From: Candidatus Cloacimonadota bacterium
GTDB lineage: Bacteria; Cloacimonadota; Cloacimonadia; Cloacimonadales; Cloacimonadaceae
DNA: 48,954 nt
Direction of reading: 5' to 3'
Assembly (NCBI GenBank): GCA_020532515.1
Contig: JAJBAY010000005.1
Location: forward strand, 1 to 48,954
The position numbers and the translations under genes were made by a program. How positions within the stretch are numbered: the first letter of the stretch is position 1; each line of letters starts with the position of its first letter. Under the pieces are notes generated by a model, which was not told the DNA's origin, ran no database searches, and worked only from the letters and a program-made list of their open reading frames with translations. Below, piece by piece: positions 5,247-22,135 of the stretch.

Positions 5247-8200
5247 ATGAAACGAACACTATTTTTGATTGCACTGATGATGATCATGATTACGAGCCTC
5301 TTTGCAGAGCGGATCAGCCTCGGTAGCGAAGGTAATTCTTTGCAAGTCTTGCAAAGCAGCACGCAGGAAACTATCCTGCAATATAAGATTCAGCACTTTG
5401 ACACCCAGGAAGTGCAAATCCAGGGAAGTTCCTGGTATCACATCACCCTGCCCAATGAAGGCTTCACCCAGGATAAGGGGCTGCCTCAATTGCCGGTATT
5501 CAACCGCAGTATTATTATCGACGGCAGGGCCAGGATGAAACTGGAGATCTATGATATCGAATATACAGACATCAAGCTGCCCATAGCTCCTTCCAAAGGT
5601 GTGATCACTCGCAATATCGATCCCGCCACTATTCCCTATGAATTCGACTCCATCTATCAGGGTAATAGCTTTTACCCGGAGCAGATAGCCGCCCTCAGCG
5701 AGCCTTACATCCTCCGGGATTTTCGTGGTATTACCATCAAAACCACGCCTTTTGCCTACCGTCCTAGCACGGGAACGCTGCGCGTCTATACCGCTTACAA
5801 AGTTCGCGTTTATGGTGATGGCAACGACACCCTGAATACCATGACTCAGAGCCGGGATAGCATTTCACGCGACTTTGCCCCGCTCTATGAAAACCACTTT
5901 GTGAATTGGCAAAACCAACGTTATACTCCCGTGAGCGATAGCTTCGGCAAGCTTTTGGTGATCTGCCACACGAATTATATGAGCACCATCCTGCCTTACG
6001 TCAACTGGAAAATCCAGAAGGGCATACCCACAGAATTGGTGCAGTGGTCCACCATTGGCACCACTGCTGCTCAGCTTCAAACCTATATCAAGAATCGTTA
6101 TACCGCTGATCCCACTATTGCCTATGTGCAGCTTGTGGGTGATGCACCCCAAATTCCTTCCCTTTCCTCTGGTGGCGGCGGATCAGATCCCAGCTTCTCT
6201 CTCGTGGCTGGAACGGATAACTATCCCGATATCTTCATTGGCCGCTTCTCCGCTGAAACCACTGCCCAGGTTACTGCTCAGATAAACAAGGCAATTGTTT
6301 ATGAAAGAGATGTAACCACCAGCGATACCTGGCTTTCCAAAGCCTTAGGCATTGCCTCTGCTGAAGGTGGTGGATCGCAAGGTGATAATGGCGAATCCGA
6401 CATTCAGCACATGAACAATATCCGCACCAAGCTGCTGAACTACGGTTACAGCAGTGTGGATCAGATTTACGATCCGGGCGCCTCAGCTGCTACGGTTACT
6501 ACCAATGTCAACGCCGGCAGAGGGTTCATGAACTACGTAGGACACGGCTCTGACACCTCCTGGAGTACCACAGGATTCAACAACACCAATGCCACCAACC
6601 TCACCAACGGCAACAAGACACCTTTCATCATGGACGTAGCTTGCGTCAATGGCAATTTTGTGTCCATGACCTGCTTCGCCGAAGCCTGGCTGCGCAATGC
6701 CAATGGTGGCGCTGTCGCCATGTATGCCAGCTCCATCAATCAGTCTTGGAACTCACCGATGCTTGCAGAAGACGAGGTTACCATACTGGTGACAACCGAA
6801 GCAAAATATACTACTGGCGGCCTTTACTACAATGGCTCCTGCAAGATGATGGATACTTATGGCAACACAACAGGCTCAGACGGCGTAAATATGTTCAAAA
6901 CCTGGCATATCTTTGGTGACGCCAGCCTGACCGCTCGCACCAAGACTCCTATCGCCATGGCTGTGACCCATCCTTCCAATATAATTTCAGGGACCAGCTC
7001 TATTAGCGTTTCCACAGGAGTCAACAATACCCTGGTGGCTATTACATATAACAACATCATCTATGGACGTGGATTCACCAATAGCTCCGGTAACGCGACT
7101 ATTACGCTCACCAGCCCGCCCACCGGTGTTTTGAACTATACCATCACGGCTTCTGCGCACAACCGCGTTACCTACGTGGGCACCATTGCCCAGACCGTGG
7201 CCTCCGGCCCCTGGATGGAAGTGACTGCCGCAAACTATGATGATGCGAATAACGACCTTCCCGAATACAACGAAAGCGGCTACTTCGACGTTACCTTCAA
7301 GAACTCTGGTACTTCTGCCGCCTCGAACGTTTTCGCCACTCTAAGTTGCTCCACCACTGGCATCAGCATTACAGACGCTGCCCACACCATCAGCAGCCTG
7401 GCTGCCGGAGCTTCCACTGTAGCGGATAATGCCTATGCCATTAGCATTGCCAACAATGTGGCCGATGGCACCCTGGCGAACTTTACCATCACCATGACTA
7501 TGTCCGGTTCTGGGCCCTGGACCTACAACTTCAGCAAGACTATTTCCGCTCCAGAGCTGGCCTTTGGCGATATGACCATCAGCGATCCTACCGGTAATAA
7601 CAATGGCAAGCTGGACCCTGGCGAAACCGCCACCATCTCCATTGTGCTGAATAACACCGGTGCAGCCGCTTCCCTGCCTGGAACCGGCACCCTGAGCTGT
7701 AGCACAACTGGGATCACGATCGTGAATGGCAGTGCCAACTTCACAGCCATCTCTGCCGCGGGTTATACGACCCTGAACTTTACTGTCACTGCCGCTTCTT
7801 CAATGAGCCTAGGTACCCTGGCTGCGTTTGTCTTTAACGCCGCTGCCGGAGCCTATACCGCCACCGCCACCCAGAATGTAGAAGTGGGCGCCCCGATGGA
7901 AATTATTATCGGTAGCGGCAGTTCCACTCAGTCTTACCCCATTGACCGTTACTACACTTATTCCGGTCACGAAGCCATCTATCTGGCAAATGAAATCGGA
8001 ACTCCCGGCACCATCAAATCCATGGCTTTCAACAAAGCCAGCGGTACTGATGTGAACACCATCGAAGCTGTAACCGTCTATATGAAGAACACCACCGCCA
8101 CCAGCCTGGCCACCGGCAACTATTCCACCACCGGCTACACTCAGGTTTACAGCGGTACCTGGCCAAACACCGCCACCAGCGGTTGGATGGAAGTGGACCT

Positions 8201-11200
8201 AAATACCCAGTTTGCCTACGACGGCAGCAACCTCTCCATCCTCACCATTAAAGGTAATCAAGCCTGGATATCCAATTATCCCATGTGGAGCTACACTACC
8301 GCTTCGGCTAACCGGGCACGTCAGAACAGTAATGACAATTCACAACCGACCTCTCTGACTGCCTCCAGAAACCTGCCCAACCTGAAGCTGAAGCTCTTCC
8401 CGGCGGTTGGCATGCTCTATCCTCCGCAGAACCTTACTGCTGAAGCTTCCCATGCTTCAGTGACCCTCACTTGGCAGACCCCGTTCAGCGGCACTCCCAC
8501 CGGTTACAAGATATATCGGAACAATACCGCTCTCACCACCGTTACCACTCTTACCTACAGGGATACAGCAGTAACCGACGGCACTACCTACAGCTACAAG
8601 GTCTCTGCCCTCTACGGCAGCGACGAATCTGACCCCACTGCCGTAGTCACCGCCACTCCAAATATGTATCCGCCCACCAACCTTGTCGCCACTGGCAGTA
8701 ATAATGTAGTCCAGCTCACCTGGACAGCAGCTACCGGACGTGAAGCTGAGGATACGCTTGAGCTTGGCACCAAAAACCGTGCCATCAGCAGCTACAAGAT
8801 CTACCGGAACGGAACTGCCCATACCACTGTAAGCGGCACTTCCTACAACGATACGGCCGTGACCAATGGCACAGCTTACAGCTACTATGTGACTACACTC
8901 TACACCAACCCCGCGGGAGAATCAGCCGCTTCGAATACCGCCACGGCTACCCCGAATATGTTGACAGAAGTGGTCATCGGTACCGGCACCTCTTCCACCG
9001 GCAATTATGATGCCTGCCCGATCAGTGTTTGGTATCAGAGCTTGCACGGACAATCGGTTTATACCAAAGCCGAGCTGAATGCCCTCGGCGTGGTTGGCCC
9101 CATTAATATAAATCAACTTGGCTTCAACGTGACTGGCCTGCCTGCCCAAGCCATGCCGAATTATGTGGTTCGTATGGGACACACTACTGCCACTAACGCG
9201 GCCAGCTGGATATCCACAGGCCTTACCCAGGTGTGGTCTTCAGCATCTTATCAGCCTGCCACCACCGGTTGGAACATGTACACCCTCAGCACTCCCTTCC
9301 TGTGGAACGGAACTGACAACATCGTAATTGATACTGGCTTCGGCTTGATTGGCGGATATGATGCCAGCGGTAGCACCCAATACAGCACTGTCACCAGCGG
9401 ATATCGTTTCGGACGCAGCGACACTGTGGACCAGACCAACCTCTTCACTGGGACAGAAACCTCCACCTACAGACCCAATGTGAAGCTTTCCCTACTGGCT
9501 ATAGCAACTGGTCCTGCCATTGCGGTCAACCCAGCCTCCATATCCGAAACAGCACAGACCGGCAACAGCACCACTGCAACCCTGACAATCAGCAATACTG
9601 GCAGCGCCGCCCTCACCTGGAGCACCCCATCCAGCTTCGCAGCCTGGGGAAGCGTAACACCTCTGAGCGGAACCATTGCAGCAGGAGGAAACACAGTTCT
9701 TACACTCACTCTCAACGCCGCTGCCCTTACCCCCAATACCTACAACGCCAATCTGGTGATAAGCTCCAATGCCCAGAACACTCCCAGCCTCACCGTTCCA
9801 GTCACCTTCACTGTTAATGCAGTGGTAGTGCCTTCGGACATCCGCTTCATCGCGGAGTGGGAACCTGCCACGGGTGTCATCATCGCTTATGCCAGCGGAT
9901 TTGGCCTACCCTATAACATGATCGCTGACCTCTCAAATAGAGGCCAAGTATATGTACTGGGTACCTCCGGTAGCCAGAGCACGGCCACCAGCCAGCTCTC
10001 CTCCAATGGAGTAAACATGTCTAACGTCAGCTACATTGTTCGCAATGGTGTCGATACATATTGGACTCGCGATTACGGTCCCTGGTCCATCTTTGATGCT
10101 AATGGCGAGATGAGCATTGTGGACTTCCGCTACAACCGTAACCGGACTTATGACAACGCGGTAAATGCCATTTTGGACGACCAATTCGGTTTCAACTACA
10201 GCTACATGCCCCTGGTCGCCACCGGCGGAAACGTAATGACCGATGGCCAGGGCAAGATGATGTCCACCACTCTGATCCAGACCGAGAACGATGGCATCCA
10301 GAACTCCCAGGTGACTGAATACAACTATACTATGCCTCAGATTAATGACTTGGTGGAGCAGTATCTGGGTGTGACGGATTACTTCATGTATGCCGATCCG
10401 CTCTCCAACTCCAACATTGACCACATCGATTGCCATGCCAAGCTCTTGGATGTGGACAAGGTTATGATCGCACGCGCGCCTTCAGGCAGTGCCAATTACA
10501 CCGCTCTGGAAGCTACGGCTGCCCTCTGGCAATCCAAAACCTCCAGTTACGGCACCCCTTATCAGATCTTCCGTGTGAACCAGAGCTCTGCTAACGAGCC
10601 CTATGCCAATTCCTTCATCTTCAACAACAAGATCTACGTGCCCCAGTGGAATTCAACCCCTTCCAGTTACGACACAGCCGCCATCGCCGCTTACCAGGCT
10701 GCTATGCCCGGATATACCGTGCAGGGCTATTACAACAGCTCCTGGCTCTCCGACGATGCCGTCCACTGCCGCGTGAATACGATTTATGACGAGCAGATGA
10801 TTAGCCTCCGGCATGTGCCGCTGACTTCGGCCCCTGCCAACAGCAACATCACCGTCACCGTAGAGATCACCCACAGCAATCCGCTGAACCCTTCCAGCAC
10901 TTACGTGGCCTACCGGCACAGTACTACCGGCCAATGGCAAAACGTGCTACTTACCTATGTCAACGGCAAAACCTGGACTGCTCAGATCCCCACACCCGCC
11001 CTGGGCCAAACCCTCTACTATCACATTCTGGCCACGGATACCACTGCCAGATTTGCCGGCATGCCCCTTTGCGGTGCCTCCGATCCCTTCAAAATACTCA
11101 TAAATATCCCCGGCGCGAATACTGCTCCTACGATCGCTCTGCCAAACTCCTTCAGCTTTGAAGAAGACGGCAGTCTGGTAGTAGATTTCAGCCAGTATGT

Positions 11201-12923
11201 GGAGGACGTGGATAATGACACCCTCACCCTCAGTTACAGCGGAAACACCGACGTGATCGTCTCTATCGATGGACTGTCGGTGACTTTCACGGCAACTCCA
11301 GATTGGCACGGCACGGAAAACCTCAGCTTCACAATCAGTGATGGTGTTTTGACCGCCGATGATAATGTAAATGTGATAGTGACCTCGGTCAACGATGCTC
11401 CGACTATTACTCTGCCAGACTCCTTCAGCTTTGAAGAAGACGGCTCGCTAACTGTCGATTTCAGCCAGTATGTGAACGATGTGGACGAAGATGAACTAAC
11501 CCTAAGCTACAGCGGAAACACAAAAGTGACAGTCTCCATCGACGGTTTGAGTGTCACCAACGGTGCGGTGGATGATGTCGATAAAGCTGAGCTAACTCGC
11601 AGCTACAGCAGAAACACGAATGTGAGCGTTTCTATTGACGGTTTGAGCGTCACTTTCGGTGCAACGGCAGATTGGCACGGCACAGAAACCATCACCTTCA
11701 CGATCAGCGACCCAGAACTCTCTGCCAGTGAAGAAGTGGAAGTGATGGTAACCCCCGTCAACGATGCTCCGACCATTGCTCTGCCAGACTCCTTCAGCTT
11801 TGAGGAAGACGGTTCACTAACAGTCGATTTCAGCTCCTACGTAGATGATGTGGACGAAGATGAGCTTACCCTCAGCTACAGCGGAAACACAAATGTGACA
11901 GTCACTATCGACGGCTTGAGCGTCAATTTCGGTGCAACGGCAGATTGGCACGGCACAGAAACCATCACCTTCAAGGTCAGCGACCCAGAACTCTCTGCCA
12001 GTGACCAAGTAGACGTGATGGTAACCCCCGTCAACGATGCCCCAACCATAGCTCTGCCAGACTCCTTCAGCTTTGAGGAAGACGGTTCACTAATAGTCGA
12101 TTTTAGTTCCTACGTGAACGATGTGGACGAAGATGAACTAACCCTCAGTTACAGCGGAAACACCAATGTGATCGTCTCTATCGACGGACTGTCGGTGACT
12201 TTCACGGCAACTCCGGATTGGCACGGCACGGAAAACCTCAGCTTCACAGTCAGTGATGGTCTTTTGACCGCCGATGACAACGTAAATGTGATCGTGACCT
12301 CGGTCATAGATCCTGCCGCCATCCTGGTAGCTCCGCTCAGCCTGGCCTATGGTGAGATCGAAATCGGCAGTACCGACATCAAGACCTTCACCATCACCAA
12401 CAACGGCGAAGCCACCCTCACCGGAAATATTACCACCCCCACGGGATATAGCGTAGCCGAAGCAGGACGTTCCCGCAGTGAATTCGGCATAGCCTCCGAA
12501 ACCGGAAAAGCAGAGCGCAATAGCCTCAGCTATTCCGTTGCGACTGGCGTTACCAAAACCTATAGCCTCAGCTTCACTCCCACCGAGGCCATCGCCTACA
12601 ACGGTGATGTAATAGTTACCAGCAATGACCCGGAAAACCTCACCACAAACATCTCTATCACCGGCATGGGGCAGATCGGATGGCTGGCCAATCCCGCCAT
12701 CTCCATCCTCTATGTGGATGCCGCTACCGACTATGTGAAAGTACAGTGGAATGCCATTCCTAACGCCAACTACTACCAGGTCTGGGGCAGCGAAGATCCT
12801 TACGGGACCTTCAGCTTCCTGGGCGAAACCACCGACGCTTACTGGAATGACATGGACCTCGGCCATGCGATGCGCTTCTATAAAGTAATCGCAGCGAGTG
12901 AATCCTACCTTATCACCAAATAA
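5247..12923 (+). CDS. secreted gingipain-type C25 protease fused to a peptidyl-arginine deiminase-like domain
   Basis: This is a 2558-aa exported multidomain enzyme. Signal peptide is residues 1-20 (ending SLFA). A C25-type propeptide (about 21-225) precedes a gingipain-like protease (about 233-565) with GHGS (His433) and ACVNG (Cys466). Their 33-residue spacing equals the His211/Cys244 spacing of RgpB. An Ig-like domain and two CARDB-like domains follow, then two FN3 domains (about 1053-1237). These are flanked by two copies of a GxGTSSTG...GQSVYTKAEL module (884-1051, 1239-1418). Residues 1530-1851 are a PF04371-type deiminase with WTRDYGPW (Asp1609), HID (His1726, Asp1728), Asn1788 and Cys1841. 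These match the PPAD catalytic set in order and nearly in spacing. As in PPAD, an Ig-like domain comes next (1852-1955). Four cadherin-like repeats (1958-2353), an ASH-like domain and an FN3-like end complete it. No sorting tail is present. The ATG at 5247 follows AGGAG. Substrate specificity is not known from sequence. Confidence 0.9.
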   Translation: MKRTLFLIALMMIMITSLFAERISLGSEGNSLQVLQSSTQETILQYKIQHFDTQEVQIQGSSWYHITLPNEGFTQDKGLPQLPVFNRSIIIDGRARMKLEIYDIEYTDIKLPIAPSKGVITRNIDPATIPYEFDSIYQGNSFYPEQIAALSEPYILRDFRGITIKTTPFAYRPSTGTLRVYTAYKVRVYGDGNDTLNTMTQSRDSISRDFAPLYENHFVNWQNQRYTPVSDSFGKLLVICHTNYMSTILPYVNWKIQKGIPTELVQWSTIGTTAAQLQTYIKNRYTADPTIAYVQLVGDAPQIPSLSSGGGGSDPSFSLVAGTDNYPDIFIGRFSAETTAQVTAQINKAIVYERDVTTSDTWLSKALGIASAEGGGSQGDNGESDIQHMNNIRTKLLNYGYSSVDQIYDPGASAATVTTNVNAGRGFMNYVGHGSDTSWSTTGFNNTNATNLTNGNKTPFIMDVACVNGNFVSMTCFAEAWLRNANGGAVAMYASSINQSWNSPMLAEDEVTILVTTEAKYTTGGLYYNGSCKMMDTYGNTTGSDGVNMFKTWHIFGDASLTARTKTPIAMAVTHPSNIISGTSSISVSTGVNNTLVAITYNNIIYGRGFTNSSGNATITLTSPPTGVLNYTITASAHNRVTYVGTIAQTVASGPWMEVTAANYDDANNDLPEYNESGYFDVTFKNSGTSAASNVFATLSCSTTGISITDAAHTISSLAAGASTVADNAYAISIANNVADGTLANFTITMTMSGSGPWTYNFSKTISAPELAFGDMTISDPTGNNNGKLDPGETATISIVLNNTGAAASLPGTGTLSCSTTGITIVNGSANFTAISAAGYTTLNFTVTAASSMSLGTLAAFVFNAAAGAYTATATQNVEVGAPMEIIIGSGSSTQSYPIDRYYTYSGHEAIYLANEIGTPGTIKSMAFNKASGTDVNTIEAVTVYMKNTTATSLATGNYSTTGYTQVYSGTWPNTATSGWMEVDLNTQFAYDGSNLSILTIKGNQAWISNYPMWSYTTASANRARQNSNDNSQPTSLTASRNLPNLKLKLFPAVGMLYPPQNLTAEASHASVTLTWQTPFSGTPTGYKIYRNNTALTTVTTLTYRDTAVTDGTTYSYKVSALYGSDESDPTAVVTATPNMYPPTNLVATGSNNVVQLTWTAATGREAEDTLELGTKNRAISSYKIYRNGTAHTTVSGTSYNDTAVTNGTAYSYYVTTLYTNPAGESAASNTATATPNMLTEVVIGTGTSSTGNYDACPISVWYQSLHGQSVYTKAELNALGVVGPININQLGFNVTGLPAQAMPNYVVRMGHTTATNAASWISTGLTQVWSSASYQPATTGWNMYTLSTPFLWNGTDNIVIDTGFGLIGGYDASGSTQYSTVTSGYRFGRSDTVDQTNLFTGTETSTYRPNVKLSLLAIATGPAIAVNPASISETAQTGNSTTATLTISNTGSAALTWSTPSSFAAWGSVTPLSGTIAAGGNTVLTLTLNAAALTPNTYNANLVISSNAQNTPSLTVPVTFTVNAVVVPSDIRFIAEWEPATGVIIAYASGFGLPYNMIADLSNRGQVYVLGTSGSQSTATSQLSSNGVNMSNVSYIVRNGVDTYWTRDYGPWSIFDANGEMSIVDFRYNRNRTYDNAVNAILDDQFGFNYSYMPLVATGGNVMTDGQGKMMSTTLIQTENDGIQNSQVTEYNYTMPQINDLVEQYLGVTDYFMYADPLSNSNIDHIDCHAKLLDVDKVMIARAPSGSANYTALEATAALWQSKTSSYGTPYQIFRVNQSSANEPYANSFIFNNKIYVPQWNSTPSSYDTAAIAAYQAAMPGYTVQGYYNSSWLSDDAVHCRVNTIYDEQMISLRHVPLTSAPANSNITVTVEITHSNPLNPSSTYVAYRHSTTGQWQNVLLTYVNGKTWTAQIPTPALGQTLYYHILATDTTARFAGMPLCGASDPFKILINIPGANTAPTIALPNSFSFEEDGSLVVDFSQYVEDVDNDTLTLSYSGNTDVIVSIDGLSVTFTATPDWHGTENLSFTISDGVLTADDNVNVIVTSVNDAPTITLPDSFSFEEDGSLTVDFSQYVNDVDEDELTLSYSGNTKVTVSIDGLSVTNGAVDDVDKAELTRSYSRNTNVSVSIDGLSVTFGATADWHGTETITFTISDPELSASEEVEVMVTPVNDAPTIALPDSFSFEEDGSLTVDFSSYVDDVDEDELTLSYSGNTNVTVTIDGLSVNFGATADWHGTETITFKVSDPELSASDQVDVMVTPVNDAPTIALPDSFSFEEDGSLIVDFSSYVNDVDEDELTLSYSGNTNVIVSIDGLSVTFTATPDWHGTENLSFTVSDGLLTADDNVNVIVTSVIDPAAILVAPLSLAYGEIEIGSTDIKTFTITNNGEATLTGNITTPTGYSVAEAGRSRSEFGIASETGKAERNSLSYSVATGVTKTYSLSFTPTEAIAYNGDVIVTSNDPENLTTNISITGMGQIGWLANPAISILYVDAATDYVKVQWNAIPNANYYQVWGSEDPYGTFSFLGETTDAYWNDMDLGHAMRFYKVIAASESYLITK
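11118..12305 (+). repeat. four tandem cadherin-like repeats inside the protease-deiminase gene
   Basis: Units begin at 11118, 11391, 11760 and 12033. Units 1, 3 and 4 are exactly 273 bases (91 aa). Unit 2 is 369 bases because a 96-base segment is duplicated in it. Each unit starts N-(D/T)-APTI and carries SFSFEEDGSL, DVD, LTLSYSGNT and DWHGTE. Units 1 and 4 share one version of the second half (TADDNVNVIVTSV). Units 2 and 3 share another (SDPELSAS, VMVTPV). The Asp-rich DVDxD loops suggest calcium binding, as in cadherin/VCBS-type domains. Confidence 0.9.
11475..11666 (+). repeat. 96-bp in-frame tandem duplication within repeat unit 2
   Basis: Bases 11475-11570 and 11571-11666 encode two aligned 32-residue copies (NDVDEDELTLSYSGNT against DDVDKAELTRSYSRNT, each followed by VSIDGLSVT). 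The second copy has diverged, including loss of acidic residues in the putative calcium loop. The event is therefore not brand new. Confidence 0.85.
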
Positions 12924-13256: not shown

Positions 13257-16200
13257 GTGAAGAAGAATTGCTTAGTTCTGGCCTCTGTGATAATCATGTT
13301 AATGATCGCTAATCTGTTTGCCGTAGTAAGTCGCGGAGAACGCCCTTATATTGATATTTATCAAGTGCCGGATAGCGCCATTGTTCCTGGCCTGATTCGG
13401 GTAAAGCTGAGCGAAAACTACTCTCACATCAGCCTCAGCACCCGCACTCTGGATGGGCAGCTAAAGCGTAGCGGGGAAACTGAATGGGATGCCCTGTGCA
13501 CGCAATATGGCGTAAGCAAGATAAATCTTCTCTTTGACTCCCCAGCCCTCGCTACCAGGTATACGGACAGGCATCGCGAATGGGGCTTTGACCGCTGGCT
13601 GGAACTTGAGATAGATAGCAAAGCCAATATCAGAGATATCGTGATGGAATATCGCAAGCTGGGTGATATTGTCGAATTTGCCGAGCCTGAATACAAGAAA
13701 GTACTATATGCCGATCCCAATGGCTTTGTTCCAATTAGCTTGGAAGAGCTTCAGCGCTGGTCTGGTAACGACCCACGCCTGGGTGAGCAGTGGCATTACA
13801 ACAACACCGGACAGCAAGCCGGCACCGCTGGCAAAGATATCAGCCTCTTTGATGCCTGGAATATAGAGAAAGGCCATCAGGATGTGATAGTAGCGGTTAT
13901 TGACGGAGGTATCCAGATCAATCATCCGGATTTGGCAGCCAATATCTGGTCTGGGGTGGGTTACAACTTTGTGACCAATTCATCCACCATCACTGCAGAT
14001 GACCATGGCACCCACGTGGCAGGCACTATAGCCGCTGTGAACAACAACGGTGCAGGTGTAGCCGGCATTGCTGGCGGCTCTTCTCCCACCAGAGGAATCA
14101 GCCTGATGTCTTGCCAAGTGTTTGCAGGCAATTCCGGAAGCGGCTTTGATGTAGCTCCAGTATGGGCAGCTGACCACGGTGCAGCGATCTCACAGAACAG
14201 TTGGGGATATCAGAATGTAAACGTCTTCAATCAGACAGACCTCGATGCCATAGATTACTTTAATTTGCATGGTGGGGGAACTGTGCTAAACGGTGGTCTC
14301 ACCATCTTTGCAGCAGGCAACGACAACGCTGAAGGAAATTGGTATCCGGGCTGCTATAGTGGTGCTATGGCTGTAGCCGCAACAAACAACAAAGACATTC
14401 GCTCCTCTTATTCAAATTATGGCATCTGGGTAGAGATCTCTGCGCCAGGAGGCGAAACGGCCTATGCAAATGATCCCAAGGGTGTGCTTAGCACGATTTC
14501 CGGCAATTCTTATGCCTTTTACCAAGGCACCTCAATGGCCTGTCCCCATGTTTCGGGTGTGGCAGCCCTGGTACTGTCTTATGCACATCGAAACGGAGTG
14601 GCTTTTACCAATACCGAATTGCGCAACCTTCTTAAAAGCACCACCGACGATCATTATGCTGTAAATCCATCTTACATAGGCAAGCTCGGAACAGGGAGAT
14701 TGAATGCTCACGCTGCTTTGTTGGCAGTGAATCCTTCCCTGCCCTCGGTTTCCATCACCACTCCTTCCAACAGCAGTGTACACGATCTTGGTGCTACCAT
14801 CGCAATTAATGCTACAGCCACCGATAGCGATGGCAGCATTACCAGCGTGGCTTTCTATGTAGATGATATATTGAAGTTTACAGATTACAGCGCCCCCTAT
14901 AGCTGGAATTGGAATACCACTTCCTTCAGTGCTGGCGTTCACACTATCAAGGCCATAGCTACAGACAACGATGCCAATACAGCCGTTCACAGCATTTCCA
15001 TCAGACTGGACGCTCCTGCTGATGAAGGTTTTGAAAGCGGCAATTTCTCAGCCTATCCTTGGCTGAATAGTAGCCCCATACCCTGGACCGTGCAGAACAG
15101 CGAGAAATATTCGGGAACCTATGCCGCCAAATCCGGAGCAATAAGTGATAATGCTCAGACCGATCTCAGTGTTACTCTTTATGTAAGTCAAGCGGGCAAT
15201 ATCAGCTTCTACCAGAAGGTTTCTTCAGAGAACAACTACGACAAGCTCTTTTTCCTGATCGACAATGTTTCGCAGGGTGAATGGTCTGGAGCGGGAAACT
15301 GGAGCTATCAAAGCTATCAGGTAAATCCTGGTAATCATACCTTTACCTGGCGCTATGCAAAGGATAGAAACACGATAGGCGGCTCCGACTGCGCCTGGAT
15401 CGATCACATAGTATTTCCTCCTTTGGGAGTCTTTTATGCGCCGCCACAAAACCTAAGCGCTACGCCTGCTGATGGCTCCATCACCTTGAATTGGGATGCC
15501 ACTGGCGACACAGGCGTGCAAAATTACAAGGTTTATCGTAACGGCAACCTGCTTCAGACAACTCCTAATCTTAGCTATCAAGACCTTGCTGTTACCAATG
15601 GTAATACCTATTCCTACTACGTGATTGCCGTTTATGCAGGTGGAGAATCTGAACCCACTCCGACGGCTAATGTGATTGCCGGAGCTGTGCTTGATGCCAT
15701 CCTTGGCACTGGAACTAGCACCACTGGAATCAACCCGATCAATATCTACTACAAATCATCACACGGGCAATCCGTATATACCAAAGCTGAGCTCAACGCT
15801 GCTGGCATTTCCGGACCCATCTATATCACTCAGCTCGGCTTCAATGTTGCCACCGCACCACTCTACAACCTGCCCAATTTCATCGTGCGAATGAAGCACA
15901 CCAGCGCCACAAATGTATTAAGCTGGCAAAATGCTACCGGCATGGAGACTGTTTATAGTACCACCTCCTATGTCCCTCAAACGGGATGGGATATGCTTAC
16001 CCTTAGCAGTCCCTTCCTCTGGAATGGGATGGATAACATTGTGGTGGATACTGCGTTTGGCATTGCCGACAATTGGAATAATTCAGGTACAGTATATTAC
16101 TCTACCAGCACCTATGGCTACAGGTATATAAGATCGGACAACGCTAATCAAACCAATATCTTTAGCGGTGGAGATGTCAACAATAACAGACCCAACCTAA

Positions 16201-17765
16201 AGCTAGTCTTTGCCCCTCCTCCCGAAATCACCGTCCCCTTCGTAGATGGCTTTGAAAGTGGCGCTGACGACTGGGCTATCGTAAATGGTACTCAGGTCAA
16301 TAAATGGCACTGGGGTACAGCTACCGCCAATACCGGTACCCACAGCCTCTACATCAGCAAGGATGGAGGAACCAGCAACAGTTACGACGAAACCAAAGCC
16401 TCCCTCAGCCATTTCTACACCAATGTCAGCTTCCCCGCTGGCACGGAAGATTTCTACCTGCGCTTCAATTGGAAAGCCAATGGACAAGATGCTGCAAACG
16501 ACTATCTACAGGTCTATCTTACCGAAACTTCCATCACACCTTCAGCCGGAACAGAATTAACCACTGGAGCGCTGATATCCGGAGCTTTATCGAACTCAAA
16601 CGATTGGCAAAACTTCAGCATCCAGCTTCCTGCCAATCTTGCCGGAAGCACCAAACGTCTGATCTTCTCCTGGAAGAATAACAGCAGCACTGGAACCCAA
16701 GCCCCTGCAGCCATCGACAACATTCGCATTGTGGAAGCCGAGCAGCAGGATATCGCAGTAGTCGTTGGCACAGAGAGCGAGATAGAGCTGCCAGAGCTTA
16801 CCCTCCCTGATAACACTACCATCAATGCCTCGGTAATTATCAACGGTGTGAGTGGTTCTACTGTGGATTACTGGGCTGGCTATAACTCTGTGGGAAGCAA
16901 CCTCAACAATGCCGGTCTGGATATCAGGCTGATCGTGGATAGCTTTTCCGGATCCGAACTGATTGTTAATATTAACCACAATCTTGGCTTTATCCCACCC
17001 ACTATCGCTTACAGCTTTGGCGGGGGAGCTTGGAATATGCTCACCAATCCCGGTACCTGGACTGAGAATGATGCAGATTTGAACATCACAGTAGATCCAC
17101 AGAGATCCAGTGAACTCATCATTGTCTTTTCAGATAGCGAGGAAAACACCCTGCCCGTTACCCTGTCTTCCTTCACTGCTGTCCATACCGGCCAGGGCTA
17201 TGTCCGCGTGGATTGGGCTACAGCCTCTGAAACAGCCGTGCTGGGATATTACATCCTGCGCTCAAATAGCGCCGAGCTCACGGAAGCAGTGGCGGTTTCT
17301 TCGCTCATCGCGGCAGCCAATGCCTCAAATGGCGCCTACTACAGCTTCCGCGATAAGAGCTTCACGGAAAGTAGCACTTACTACTATTGGCTGAGTAATC
17401 TCGATTTCAATGGAATTGAAGGATTCTTCGGCCCTCTTGCCGTACATATAGACAATATGGGAGGCGGTTCTGAACCTATAGTTCCCCTGCTTACAGAAGC
17501 TCTGGGCAATTACCCCAATCCCTTCAACCCCGTTACCAATCTGCGTTATGCCCTGGCCAAAGCCGGCGAAGTGAATGTGCAGATCTACAACAACCGCGGA
17601 CAGCTCGTGCGCACACTTTCGCAGCAGCACTCTCAGCCTGGCTATTTTAGCCTGATCTTCGATGGCAAAGACGCCGCCGGACTTGGGCTGAGTAGCGGCG
17701 TGTATTTCTATCGCACCCGGATCGGCGAATACTCCGCCACCAACCGTATGTTACTGCTCAAATAA
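13257..17765 (+). CDS. secreted subtilisin-family (S8) serine protease with Ig, FN3 and FlgD-like sorting tail
   Basis: This is a 1502-aa exported protease. It has a signal peptide (1-22, ending ANLFA) and a prodomain (about 25-180). The S8 catalytic domain has Asp216 (AVIDGG), His250 (DDHGTHVAGT), oxyanion Asn355 (AAGND) and Ser426 (GTSMACPHVSG). A bacterial Ig domain follows (about 498-590), then a jelly-roll/MAM-like segment (594-725, opening EGFESGNF) and an FN3 domain (about 727-810). Next come the GxGTSTTG...GQSVYTKAEL module shared with the preceding gene (813-986) and a second jelly-roll (DGFESGADDW, about 995-1165). The LPVTLSSFTA pre-tail module (1299-1400) leads to the sorting tail with YPNPFNPVT at 1419-1427 and a final MLLLK. 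The GTG start at 13257 has AAGGAG six bases upstream. It sits between terminators and appears monocistronic. It probably acts at the cell surface or outside the cell; the substrate is unknown. Confidence 0.93.
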   Translation: MKKNCLVLASVIIMLMIANLFAVVSRGERPYIDIYQVPDSAIVPGLIRVKLSENYSHISLSTRTLDGQLKRSGETEWDALCTQYGVSKINLLFDSPALATRYTDRHREWGFDRWLELEIDSKANIRDIVMEYRKLGDIVEFAEPEYKKVLYADPNGFVPISLEELQRWSGNDPRLGEQWHYNNTGQQAGTAGKDISLFDAWNIEKGHQDVIVAVIDGGIQINHPDLAANIWSGVGYNFVTNSSTITADDHGTHVAGTIAAVNNNGAGVAGIAGGSSPTRGISLMSCQVFAGNSGSGFDVAPVWAADHGAAISQNSWGYQNVNVFNQTDLDAIDYFNLHGGGTVLNGGLTIFAAGNDNAEGNWYPGCYSGAMAVAATNNKDIRSSYSNYGIWVEISAPGGETAYANDPKGVLSTISGNSYAFYQGTSMACPHVSGVAALVLSYAHRNGVAFTNTELRNLLKSTTDDHYAVNPSYIGKLGTGRLNAHAALLAVNPSLPSVSITTPSNSSVHDLGATIAINATATDSDGSITSVAFYVDDILKFTDYSAPYSWNWNTTSFSAGVHTIKAIATDNDANTAVHSISIRLDAPADEGFESGNFSAYPWLNSSPIPWTVQNSEKYSGTYAAKSGAISDNAQTDLSVTLYVSQAGNISFYQKVSSENNYDKLFFLIDNVSQGEWSGAGNWSYQSYQVNPGNHTFTWRYAKDRNTIGGSDCAWIDHIVFPPLGVFYAPPQNLSATPADGSITLNWDATGDTGVQNYKVYRNGNLLQTTPNLSYQDLAVTNGNTYSYYVIAVYAGGESEPTPTANVIAGAVLDAILGTGTSTTGINPINIYYKSSHGQSVYTKAELNAAGISGPIYITQLGFNVATAPLYNLPNFIVRMKHTSATNVLSWQNATGMETVYSTTSYVPQTGWDMLTLSSPFLWNGMDNIVVDTAFGIADNWNNSGTVYYSTSTYGYRYIRSDNANQTNIFSGGDVNNNRPNLKLVFAPPPEITVPFVDGFESGADDWAIVNGTQVNKWHWGTATANTGTHSLYISKDGGTSNSYDETKASLSHFYTNVSFPAGTEDFYLRFNWKANGQDAANDYLQVYLTETSITPSAGTELTTGALISGALSNSNDWQNFSIQLPANLAGSTKRLIFSWKNNSSTGTQAPAAIDNIRIVEAEQQDIAVVVGTESEIELPELTLPDNTTINASVIINGVSGSTVDYWAGYNSVGSNLNNAGLDIRLIVDSFSGSELIVNINHNLGFIPPTIAYSFGGGAWNMLTNPGTWTENDADLNITVDPQRSSELIIVFSDSEENTLPVTLSSFTAVHTGQGYVRVDWATASETAVLGYYILRSNSAELTEAVAVSSLIAAANASNGAYYSFRDKSFTESSTYYYWLSNLDFNGIEGFFGPLAVHIDNMGGGSEPIVPLLTEALGNYPNPFNPVTNLRYALAKAGEVNVQIYNNRGQLVRTLSQQHSQPGYFSLIFDGKDAAGLGLSSGVYFYRTRIGEYSATNRMLLLK

Positions 17766-21600: not shown

Positions 21601-22135
21601 TGAAACTGAGGTTCTGGGTTTCCATATCCTGCGCAGCTTGGAAGAAGATCTTTCTACTGCTCTGCAGATCAGCGATCTCATTCCTGCCACCAATACTTCT
21701 CAGACCAAAGTTTACCTCTATAAGGATAAAGACCTTAACCAGGAAGGAACTTACTATTATTGGTTGCAAAATACAGAATTGAATGGAGAGACTGAATACT
21801 ACGGTCCCATCAATGTCGTGTATAGTGCTACTCAGAATGAGACACCTACGATCCCCAAAGTCACCGGACTGAGCACAATCTATCCCAATCCGTTCAATCC
21901 TTCCACCACCATCAAATACGGTCTTGCCAACGCAGAGACCTTTGATATTACGATCTACAACAGCCGTGGACAGATCGTAAAGGTGATGGAAAGAGCACAC
22001 AAGGAAGCAGGAAATTATTCAGCTTTCTGGAACGGAACTGATGAACAGGGGAAGGCATGCGGTACAGGTGTGTATTATGTGAAAATGCAAGCCGGAAAAT
22101 CCAGCTTTACCCGTAAAATGGTCTTGATGAAATAG
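18644..22135 (+). CDS. secreted beta-helix-like adhesin with jelly-roll insert and FlgD-like sorting tail
   Basis: This is a 1163-aa exported protein. Signal peptide is residues 1-24 (ending GLFGQ). Residues about 75-470 and 650-870 are Gly/Thr/Asn-rich repeated strands (SLTVNSG, TLTNGN, NGTLSL, LSNGNYLTM, ATINRSGGALSAAPTF). They resemble right-handed beta-helix or autotransporter-like passengers. Two copies of a TISR/TINR...SAPTF...LVYS/LLYTGT block can be aligned. Residues about 492-645 interrupt the helix with a jelly-roll segment (TDPFTNLTNW to WYFDDLVIDGV). Residues 961-1060 are the LPVELSSFTA pre-tail module also found in the subtilase. Residues about 1075-1163 are the sorting tail with YPNPFNPST at 1080-1088 and a final MVLMK. 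GGAG precedes the ATG by six bases. No catalytic motif is visible. Adhesion or surface-layer function is an inference from fold and export. Confidence 0.85.
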   Translation: MRHTKMILILGFIVLIGVAGLFGQVNTSGRELSLKPEWAERQTSVRDFSLRAPEQIATEHSKSARIAENPGNGMRETKTSTGTAWGTANHWNPSGVPAATDDVIINSNMATGTANRTCRSLTVNSGFTLTVTANRYLDVSTGITINGTVSLTAGTTANTTLYNQGNTTISSTGRLTATAANTVVYFDGTTPQSFTNNGTVTPPAFTLALANSAGLTMLGSNQVTCARVNLYVGTINNANKITLGNGGTTTAAVQRGSDVSIPAGSFDQPPTFNAGTAGIQLLYAPASANYSTSYEVPTDGKVAYLLLVSTPVTVSMTRDITIPYVYTTGLNLSNGNLSIGANTLTIEGTIGVVSGTVTGGNSSNILYSGDPSTILPAVAGGLNDLTIQTRNAATMISMTGNVTVNGTLSLTQGTLSNGNYLTMASGTTISRAAEGALFSAPTFAGIVDLLYTGTTPIIAGKELPTSASVINNFTTNPGGFTQYAENSSTTNLLTDPFTNLTNWAGMIGTGTNQYTTVASVNAGGTSPETRFSSTAAHTNSDLYIYRGPINTAGYDYLNVSFRSSAVGYYTQNYSTYLSLLCTANLADPFDAVWMMEYASHSATTFTVPAHTTNVGGDFYVAFWYMGDPYATDYWYFDDLVIDGVKSTPVLSNVTINGTLYLVGDYTIGTGNTLAMANNATINRSGGALSAAPTFGTLVNLVYSNTSAITTAYENPGTGVDKLTLNNSAAVTLGQNTTVNAVVSGTGNLVFDGKLLTMNGKDFAVSGPGTISALSVALANEAQICNGLTSLAHAWTTSGTQNGNLAVTLSYPATMAEDDSLWVWTKTSGSETCWTHEGQFETASGPGSNRSLTVVFTSLNGIGRADKDIAITRQTFTLNVNSTGHLQPGTAIFQDSTDLGEVTNAIFTASNAAMICGSYSPGPPPAGYVWTTTPIVVSPGDFTAENGYEFTITFVLEEDDTLPVELSSFTAAMFGTNSVHITWVTQSETEVLGFHILRSLEEDLSTALQISDLIPATNTSQTKVYLYKDKDLNQEGTYYYWLQNTELNGETEYYGPINVVYSATQNETPTIPKVTGLSTIYPNPFNPSTTIKYGLANAETFDITIYNSRGQIVKVMERAHKEAGNYSAFWNGTDEQGKACGTGVYYVKMQAGKSSFTRKMVLMK

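Follow-up and report, generated by a model that had tools for sequence, protein, structure and literature searches.

In Porphyromonas gingivalis, the arginine-specific gingipain RgpB, a peptidase of family C25, and the peptidylarginine deiminase PPAD are reported to produce C-terminally citrullinated peptides (PMC4893104). PPAD has been called unique to pathogenic Porphyromonas (PMC6147916). According to a paper from 2021, pPAD genes are more widespread than had been believed (PMC8826395), and homologs are described from several bacterial groups and from centipede venom, where two specificity residues are changed (PMC7864903). PPAD relatives beyond Porphyromonas are not new as such. On the protease side, a dockerin-bearing gingipain-like peptidase has been described from Candidatus Stygibacter, also a member of the Cloacimonadota (PMC8542988). 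Here, we describe an open reading frame (ORF) that joins a gingipain and a PPAD-like deiminase, found in contig JAJBAY010000005.1 of a Candidatus Cloacimonadota bacterium (GCA_020532515.1). The stretch of DNA that was analyzed, referred to here as the window, comprises 48,954 nucleotides, and the ORF occupies positions 5247 to 12923 of its forward strand. The product resembles the Stygibacter peptidase in being a secreted C25 peptidase, but the available part of the description of the latter does not mention a deiminase domain. We found no report of a gingipain-PPAD fusion in the open-license full-text literature, a search that had supplements and subscription journals outside its scope.

Gingipain and deiminase domains of the fusion protein

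Judged from its sequence, the ORF is a complete RgpB-like gingipain and a complete PPAD-like deiminase in one chain (Table 1). All three C25 domains scored above the Pfam cutoffs, and PAD_porph (PF04371) matched residues 1536-1830. In a sequence search against the PDB, the first half aligned with mature RgpB (residues 226-645) and with the RgpB pro-domain (residues 33-223), Lys-gingipain reaching only 8e-26. The second half aligned with PPAD throughout, including the immunoglobulin (Ig)-like domain of that enzyme, and agmatine deiminase-type entries followed at 6.6e-7 and 7.9e-7.

Conservation was read across 24 fused ORFs from 24 genomes, the window included. In both the PDB sequence alignment and the family alignment, His433 and Cys466 correspond to the catalytic dyad of RgpB, His211/Cys244, which is kept in 24 of 24 fused ORFs. 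Asp163 of the RgpB S1 pocket corresponds to Asp385 (kept in all 23 fused C25s with this column filled), and Gln282, Trp284, and Met288 correspond to Gln499, Trp501, and Met505 (24 of 24). The roles of Asp163 and Trp284 in S1 specificity are taken from PMC9559808. The junction that precedes Tyr1 of mature RgpB reads Arg-Tyr in all 22 fused ORFs that cover it, which fits self-maturation by an Arg-specific protease. The protein thus shares with RgpB (PDB 1cvr, 4ief) the propeptide, catalytic, and Ig-like domains, the dyad, both S1 residues, and the maturation site before Tyr1, and differs from it by the added PPAD domain, the long linker, the repeats, and another C terminus. The window C25 is 46% identical to its match in Porphyromonas gulae. 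In a C25 tree of 76 rows, made by a quick search that gave long-branch warnings, P. gulae and the group of the window fall into one set of 56 rows (support 98), apart from most other C25s of the window's genome. The window's genome holds 13 C25 peptidase matches (L003 to L014 and C20), only one of which was seen with a PPAD domain.

In the deiminase half, Asp1609, His1726, Asp1728, Asn1788, and Cys1841 align with the PPAD pentad Asp130, His236, Asp238, Asn297, and Cys351, at spacings of 117, 2, 60, and 53 residues versus 106, 2, 59, and 54 in PPAD. All five residues are present in 22 of the 24 fused ORFs; L083 and L084 reach a contig edge before the last residues of the pentad. With the pentad kept in 22 and the dyad in all 24, the residue match is not due to chance. 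Arg152 and Arg154 of PPAD, which are reported to bind the carboxylate of a C-terminal arginine (PMC4893104), correspond to Arg1631 and Arg1633, with equivalents in 24 of 24 fused ORFs, and Trp127 corresponds to Trp1606. An AlphaFold2 model of residues 1525-1956, built with 36 relatives, reached a mean predicted local distance difference test score (pLDDT) of 86.0 and a predicted template modeling score (pTM) of 0.88. When it was compared with the PDB by Foldseek, the top seven matches were all PPAD, with template modeling (TM) scores of 0.87-0.91, deviations of 2.1-2.6 Å, and about 30% identity. The model and the Foldseek matches, like the PDB sequence match, include the Ig-like domain behind the catalytic domain. 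The half therefore resembles PPAD (PDB 4yt9, 5ak7, 6i0x) in pentad, Trp127, Arg152/Arg154, Ig-like domain, and fold, and differs in being placed behind a gingipain.

Agmatine deiminases (TIGR03380; PDB 3hvm, 6nib) share the pentein fold and a distant sequence similarity with this half, but the match is far weaker: 31.6 bits against an equivalog cutoff of 381.8, and TM scores of 0.58-0.80, next after PPAD. Identity as an agmatine deiminase was rejected on this score and because PPAD was far ahead in both the PDB sequence and the fold searches.

The first-pass annotation of this DNA, made from the letters alone, had proposed a gingipain-PPAD fusion on the strength of the C25 pair His433/Cys466, five deiminase residues at near-PPAD spacing, and a following Ig-like domain. 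All three elements are borne out by the alignments and the model, and the fusion itself by the Pfam and PDB matches and by residues of the kind expected for Arg-X cleavage and for binding a C-terminal arginine. Of the checks that it put forward, the Pfam search returned both C25 and PF04371, and the survey of Cloacimonadota found the same architecture in frame in at least 24 of 124 genomes; structure prediction gave a PPAD-like model for the deiminase and no usable model for the C25 half. It had also considered that the deiminase might group with agmatine deiminases, and by profile, PDB sequence, and fold it is of PPAD type.

Occurrence of fused and separate PPAD-like genes

A PPAD-like match (E ≤ 0.001) is present in 112 of the 124 genomes of the phylum, and many of these matches are separate genes. 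We examined 40 of the listed matches, selected because their frames were long or cut by contig edges and because they were close to the window's copy. C25 and PPAD share one frame in 23 of them, from 23 genomes, which with the window gives the 24 fused ORFs. As a lower bound, the in-frame fusion is thus present in at least 22 of the 49 genomes of the window's family and in two genomes (G055 and G072) from two other families. The C25 domain precedes the PPAD domain in every fused ORF. Among the matches listed, 34 C25s in 33 genomes are at least 70% identical, all in the window's family; 21 of them are fused in frame, and 6 are truncated by the end of their contig. The fusion is largely confined to one family. 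Two relatives (G023:C15, L105, and G020:C16, L106) have a separate PPAD-like gene on the contig that carries the fusion, about 8-12 kb downstream of it.

In a PPAD tree made by a quick search from 119 of 155 distinct rows, 20 of the 22 fused rows fall into one set of 32 (support 99), whose other 12 rows are unfused, split, or edge-cut relatives from the window's family. The fusions of G055 and G072 (L076 and L077) lie outside this set, and the C25 tree places both beside the C25s of their own groups. A single clade of all fusions is not rejected by the approximately unbiased test (P = 0.235).

The window's genome has a second PAD_porph match, a separate gene at a contig end (C125), which groups with a named Cloacimonadota record (support 99), in support of Cloacimonadota as the host phylum. 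A scan of species genomes with the separate type of PPAD gave 336 relatives. The best 80 are from Cloacimonadota, Neomarinimicrobiota, Bacteroidales, other Bacteroidota (Lentimicrobium, Ancylomarina, Porphyromonas gulae), and unplaced bacteria, and none of these 80 has a C25 in the frame of the PPAD in the stretches examined. Stronger matches (E ≤ 1e-30) were found in 25 of 395 genomes sampled around a Bacteroidales center and in 80 of 245 sampled around a Neomarinimicrobiota center; weaker matches in these samples may not be PPADs proper. The longest frames in the two samples, 1064 and 1106 amino acids, fall short of the 1134 of the smallest two-ended fusion, that of G001, so no frame of fusion length was seen there, although frames cut by contig ends could conceal fusions. 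The separate proteins of Cloacimonadota, Neomarinimicrobiota, and Bacteroidales share family and conserved residues with the fusion; they differ in being unfused in the stretches examined, with an adjoining C25 gene in a few contigs. Asn replaces the pentad residue Asp238 in two separate PPAD-like proteins from a single lineage (the second copies of L099 and L101).

A C25 ORF lies within 1.5 kb of 14 of 142 unfused PPAD ORFs, 12 times on the same strand. The count takes in relatives in which the fusion is split (L055, L057, and L065) as well as duplicate records (11 duplicates in the alignment set). The excess over chance is modest: with 13 C25 genes in 2.3 Mb, a rough estimate puts the chance expectation at about 6. 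Only two cases carry much weight, L194 (Neomarinimicrobiota) and L208 (Bacteroidales), in which the gene directly adjoining the PPAD gene is the best RgpB-like C25 of the genome. The first-pass annotation had also suggested that the protease-deiminase pairing is not specific to oral pathogens. This holds for PPAD-type genes, which occur in this phylum, the Bacteroidota, and the Neomarinimicrobiota; the fusion itself is concentrated in one family.

A predicted two-step reaction and its alternatives

We consider it probable that the fusion acts as a secreted two-step enzyme, cleaving Arg-X bonds and then deiminating the new C-terminal arginine. After export, the RgpB-like part would mature itself by cutting between Arg225 and Tyr226 and would then cleave extracellular proteins after arginine. 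The PPAD-like part of the same chain would convert the exposed C-terminal arginine to citrulline, releasing ammonia, most likely as a supply of peptide nitrogen and carbon for a protein-degrading anaerobe. The observations behind this reading are one ORF with both domain sets, conserved catalytic and specificity residues, recurrence across genomes, and a PPAD fold in the model; in particular, the specificity residues of both halves are directed at one group, the arginine that the first cleavage exposes. From these we infer the activities, their order, the route of secretion, the purpose, and a benefit of holding both enzymes on one chain.

Several observations weigh against such coupling. The distance from the C25 Ig domain to the PPAD domain varies among fusions from 0 (G001 and G037) to 1262 residues, and the longest linkers do not suggest a tight geometry. 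Three of the 34 listed close C25 relatives adjoin a PPAD frame without being fused to it (two genes in G021, one intervening stop in G013, overlapping frames in G040), and four are complete without PPAD (in G031, G002, and G046, and the second copy in G026). Unfused PPAD-like proteins also occur in genomes that bear the fusion. Tyr233 of PPAD, which is said to help exclude residues past the arginine (PMC9559808), is Asn1723 here, and its column holds Tyr in just 14 of the 23 fused ORFs in which it is filled, so that it is no fixed feature of the wider family. Strict specificity for C-terminal arginine is therefore less certain than the analogy drawn in the first-pass annotation implies. In the protease half, Thr209 at the base of the RgpB S1 pocket is Val431, a conservative change (Val in 20 and Thr in 1 of the 23 fused ORFs with the column filled), and the structure model of this half, built from 5 sequences, was unusable (pLDDT 53.8).

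Among the alternatives, the one that survives best, although we consider it unlikely, is that the chain is a polyprotein. The Arg-specific domain would cut its own linker after export to yield a separate gingipain and a separate PPAD, and the fusion would serve only to deliver the two in equal amounts and to export them together. Such self-processing has a precedent in RgpA and its adhesin domains. The linker of the window contains 13 arginines, fusion linkers average 1.69% Arg, and in G021 the two enzymes are encoded by separate neighboring genes, each with its own N-terminal start. On the other hand, the linker value is below that of the catalytic part (2.73%), the PPAD part (3.26%), and the noncatalytic part of the neighboring subtilase (2.34%). 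Since Lys is low in the linkers as well, the low Arg content is no demonstration of arginine avoidance. A working fusion is favored by the linkerless forms of G001 and G037, in which the PPAD domain directly follows the C25 Ig domain; linkers that contain arginine in other fusions would permit self-processing.

The two enzymes may instead be bundled with adhesive repeats on a surface protein and exported together without coupling, with free arginine or other proteins as the main substrates of the deiminase. This we regard as distinctly improbable. PPAD is reported to be able to modify free arginine (PMC4585897), the chain carries tandem-95 repeats and other modules, and Tyr233 is not conserved in the window. 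Against this, the fusion found in 21 of the 34 listed close C25 relatives pairs PPAD with exactly the enzyme that makes its substrate, and the equivalents of Arg152/Arg154 are kept in every fused ORF. There is very little to be said for self-protection, in which the deiminase would mainly modify arginines of the protease chain itself or block the rebinding of products and so limit self-cleavage: an Arg-specific protease does bear arginines in its own linkers here, but a preference for C-terminal arginine is reported for PPAD-type enzymes (PMC4893104). An assembly join, which the first-pass annotation had raised, or a decayed gene has a negligible chance of being correct, since, although the genome (G000) is a draft of 150 contigs, no stop interrupts the 2558 codons, active-site residues are kept, and the identical order recurs in 23 other genomes; with in-frame fusions in 24 genomes, the join was rejected.

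Among 40 relatives, 24 from the window's family and 16 from other families, carbamate kinase was matched in 38 (23 and 15, respectively) and arginine deiminase in 8 (0 and 8). Ornithine carbamoyltransferase was absent from the 10 ORFs around carbamate kinase in three genomes, no genome-wide search for that enzyme having been made. A metabolic link between the fusion and a carbamate kinase without arginine deiminase is only a lead. In the three genomes inspected, the carbamate kinase gene adjoins that of a conserved CobW-like protein.

There is also a wider possibility, which we put forward tentatively and hold to be somewhat less probable than its opposite. Gingipain R and PPAD may form an old extracellular module of Bacteroidota, Neomarinimicrobiota, and Cloacimonadota that breaks down environmental protein by cleaving after arginine and then citrullinating the C-terminal arginine. 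The module would have been fused in Cloacimonadota, perhaps repeatedly, and P. gingivalis would have recruited it late, in unfused form, as its virulence pair. None of the 24 genomes tested from the fused family yielded a cytoplasmic arginine deiminase; extracellular deimination may replace that enzyme there, and the protein may be exported through an undescribed C-terminal sorting domain. Our results suggest that a disease-linked pair of enzymes, a protease and a citrullinating deiminase, is older and more widely used among bacteria than a single mouth pathogen would indicate. A natural fusion kept in many species from a nonoral lineage provides independent evolutionary evidence that Arg-gingipain and PPAD share one substrate stream, and it offers a single recombinant protein for testing both their coupling and what bacterial citrullination originally served.

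Feature coordinates, terminal module, and predicted secretion

Table 1. Features of the gingipain-PPAD fusion gene (positions in the window; residues of the product)
Feature	Position	Strand	Basis
Gingipain-PPAD fusion gene, 2558 amino acids plus stop	5247-12923	+	Single uninterrupted frame, ATG at 5247, stop at 12921-12923; identical architecture in frame in 23 other genomes
Signal-peptide-like N terminus, residues ~1-20	5247-5306	+	Judged by eye from the translation
C25 propeptide, residues 32-196	5340-5834	+	Propeptide_C25 1.8e-26; RgpB pro-domain 3.6e-27
Predicted maturation junction, Arg225-Tyr226	5919-5924	+	Mature RgpB alignment starts at 226; Arg-Tyr in 22/22 fused ORFs covering the site
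Peptidase C25 catalytic domain, residues 237-561	5955-6929	+	Peptidase_C25 6.7e-57; RgpB 4e-90
S1 Asp385 codon	6399-6401	+	
His433 codon	6543-6545	+	
Cys466 codon	6642-6644	+	
Trp501 codon	6747-6749	+	
C25 C-terminal Ig-like domain, residues 568-647	6948-7187	+	Peptidase_C25_C 2.6e-18
Linker with beta-sandwich modules, residues 648-1524	7188-9818	+	Pfam; HYDIN/BACON-type Ig domain at 1425-1514
PPAD-like deiminase and its Ig-like domain, residues 1531-1951	9837-11099	+	PAD_porph 2e-25; PPAD 3.6e-64; model
Asp1609 codon	10071-10073	+	
Arg1631 codon	10137-10139	+	
Arg1633 codon	10143-10145	+	
His1726 codon	10422-10424	+	
Asp1728 codon	10428-10430	+	
Asn1788 codon	10608-10610	+	
Cys1841 codon	10767-10769	+	
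Four tandem-95/cadherin-like repeats, residues 1971-2348	11157-12290	+	NF012211 7.6e-36; Pfam
Weak choice-of-anchor-D-like domain, residues 2355-2463	12309-12635	+	NF012200 33.2 bits, under cutoff of 45
Terminal FN3-like module, residues 2471-2558, possible sorting domain	12657-12920	+	No Pfam match at E 0.01

The C terminus of the fusion has no match to the type A tail of the type IX secretion system (T9SS) (Por_Secre_tail, TIGR04183). The window's genome has a SprA_N match (4.2e-18) and 99 type A tail matches, 94 of them marked over the cutoff, a very large repertoire of probably secreted proteins. Three such tails are encoded on the window's contig by other ORFs (251-496, 17511-17750, and 21878-22123). 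Where the 3' end is intact (21 fused ORFs), every fusion terminates in the same FN3-like module, and none has a FlgD-like tail. Of 131 other intact-end PPAD-bearing ORFs, 9 carry the module, 58 match a crude pattern for a FlgD-like tail, and 64 show neither, a comparison that favors the fusions, on which the module profile was trained. The 88-residue module occurs at 10 places in the window's genome (the fusion and L231 to L239), each time ending 0-47 residues before the stop. It sits on different proteins, and one copy, 94% identical, is on a subtilase. A reasonable guess is that the module is a second kind of C-terminal sorting domain beside the T9SS type A tail.

The next gene downstream (13257-17765) codes for an S8 subtilase that bears FN3/MAM-like modules and terminates in a FlgD-like tail. 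Elsewhere in the same genome, a closely related subtilase (G000:C60) ends in the fusion's module instead. With relatives that differ in this way, C-terminal domains seem to have been exchanged between secreted proteases.
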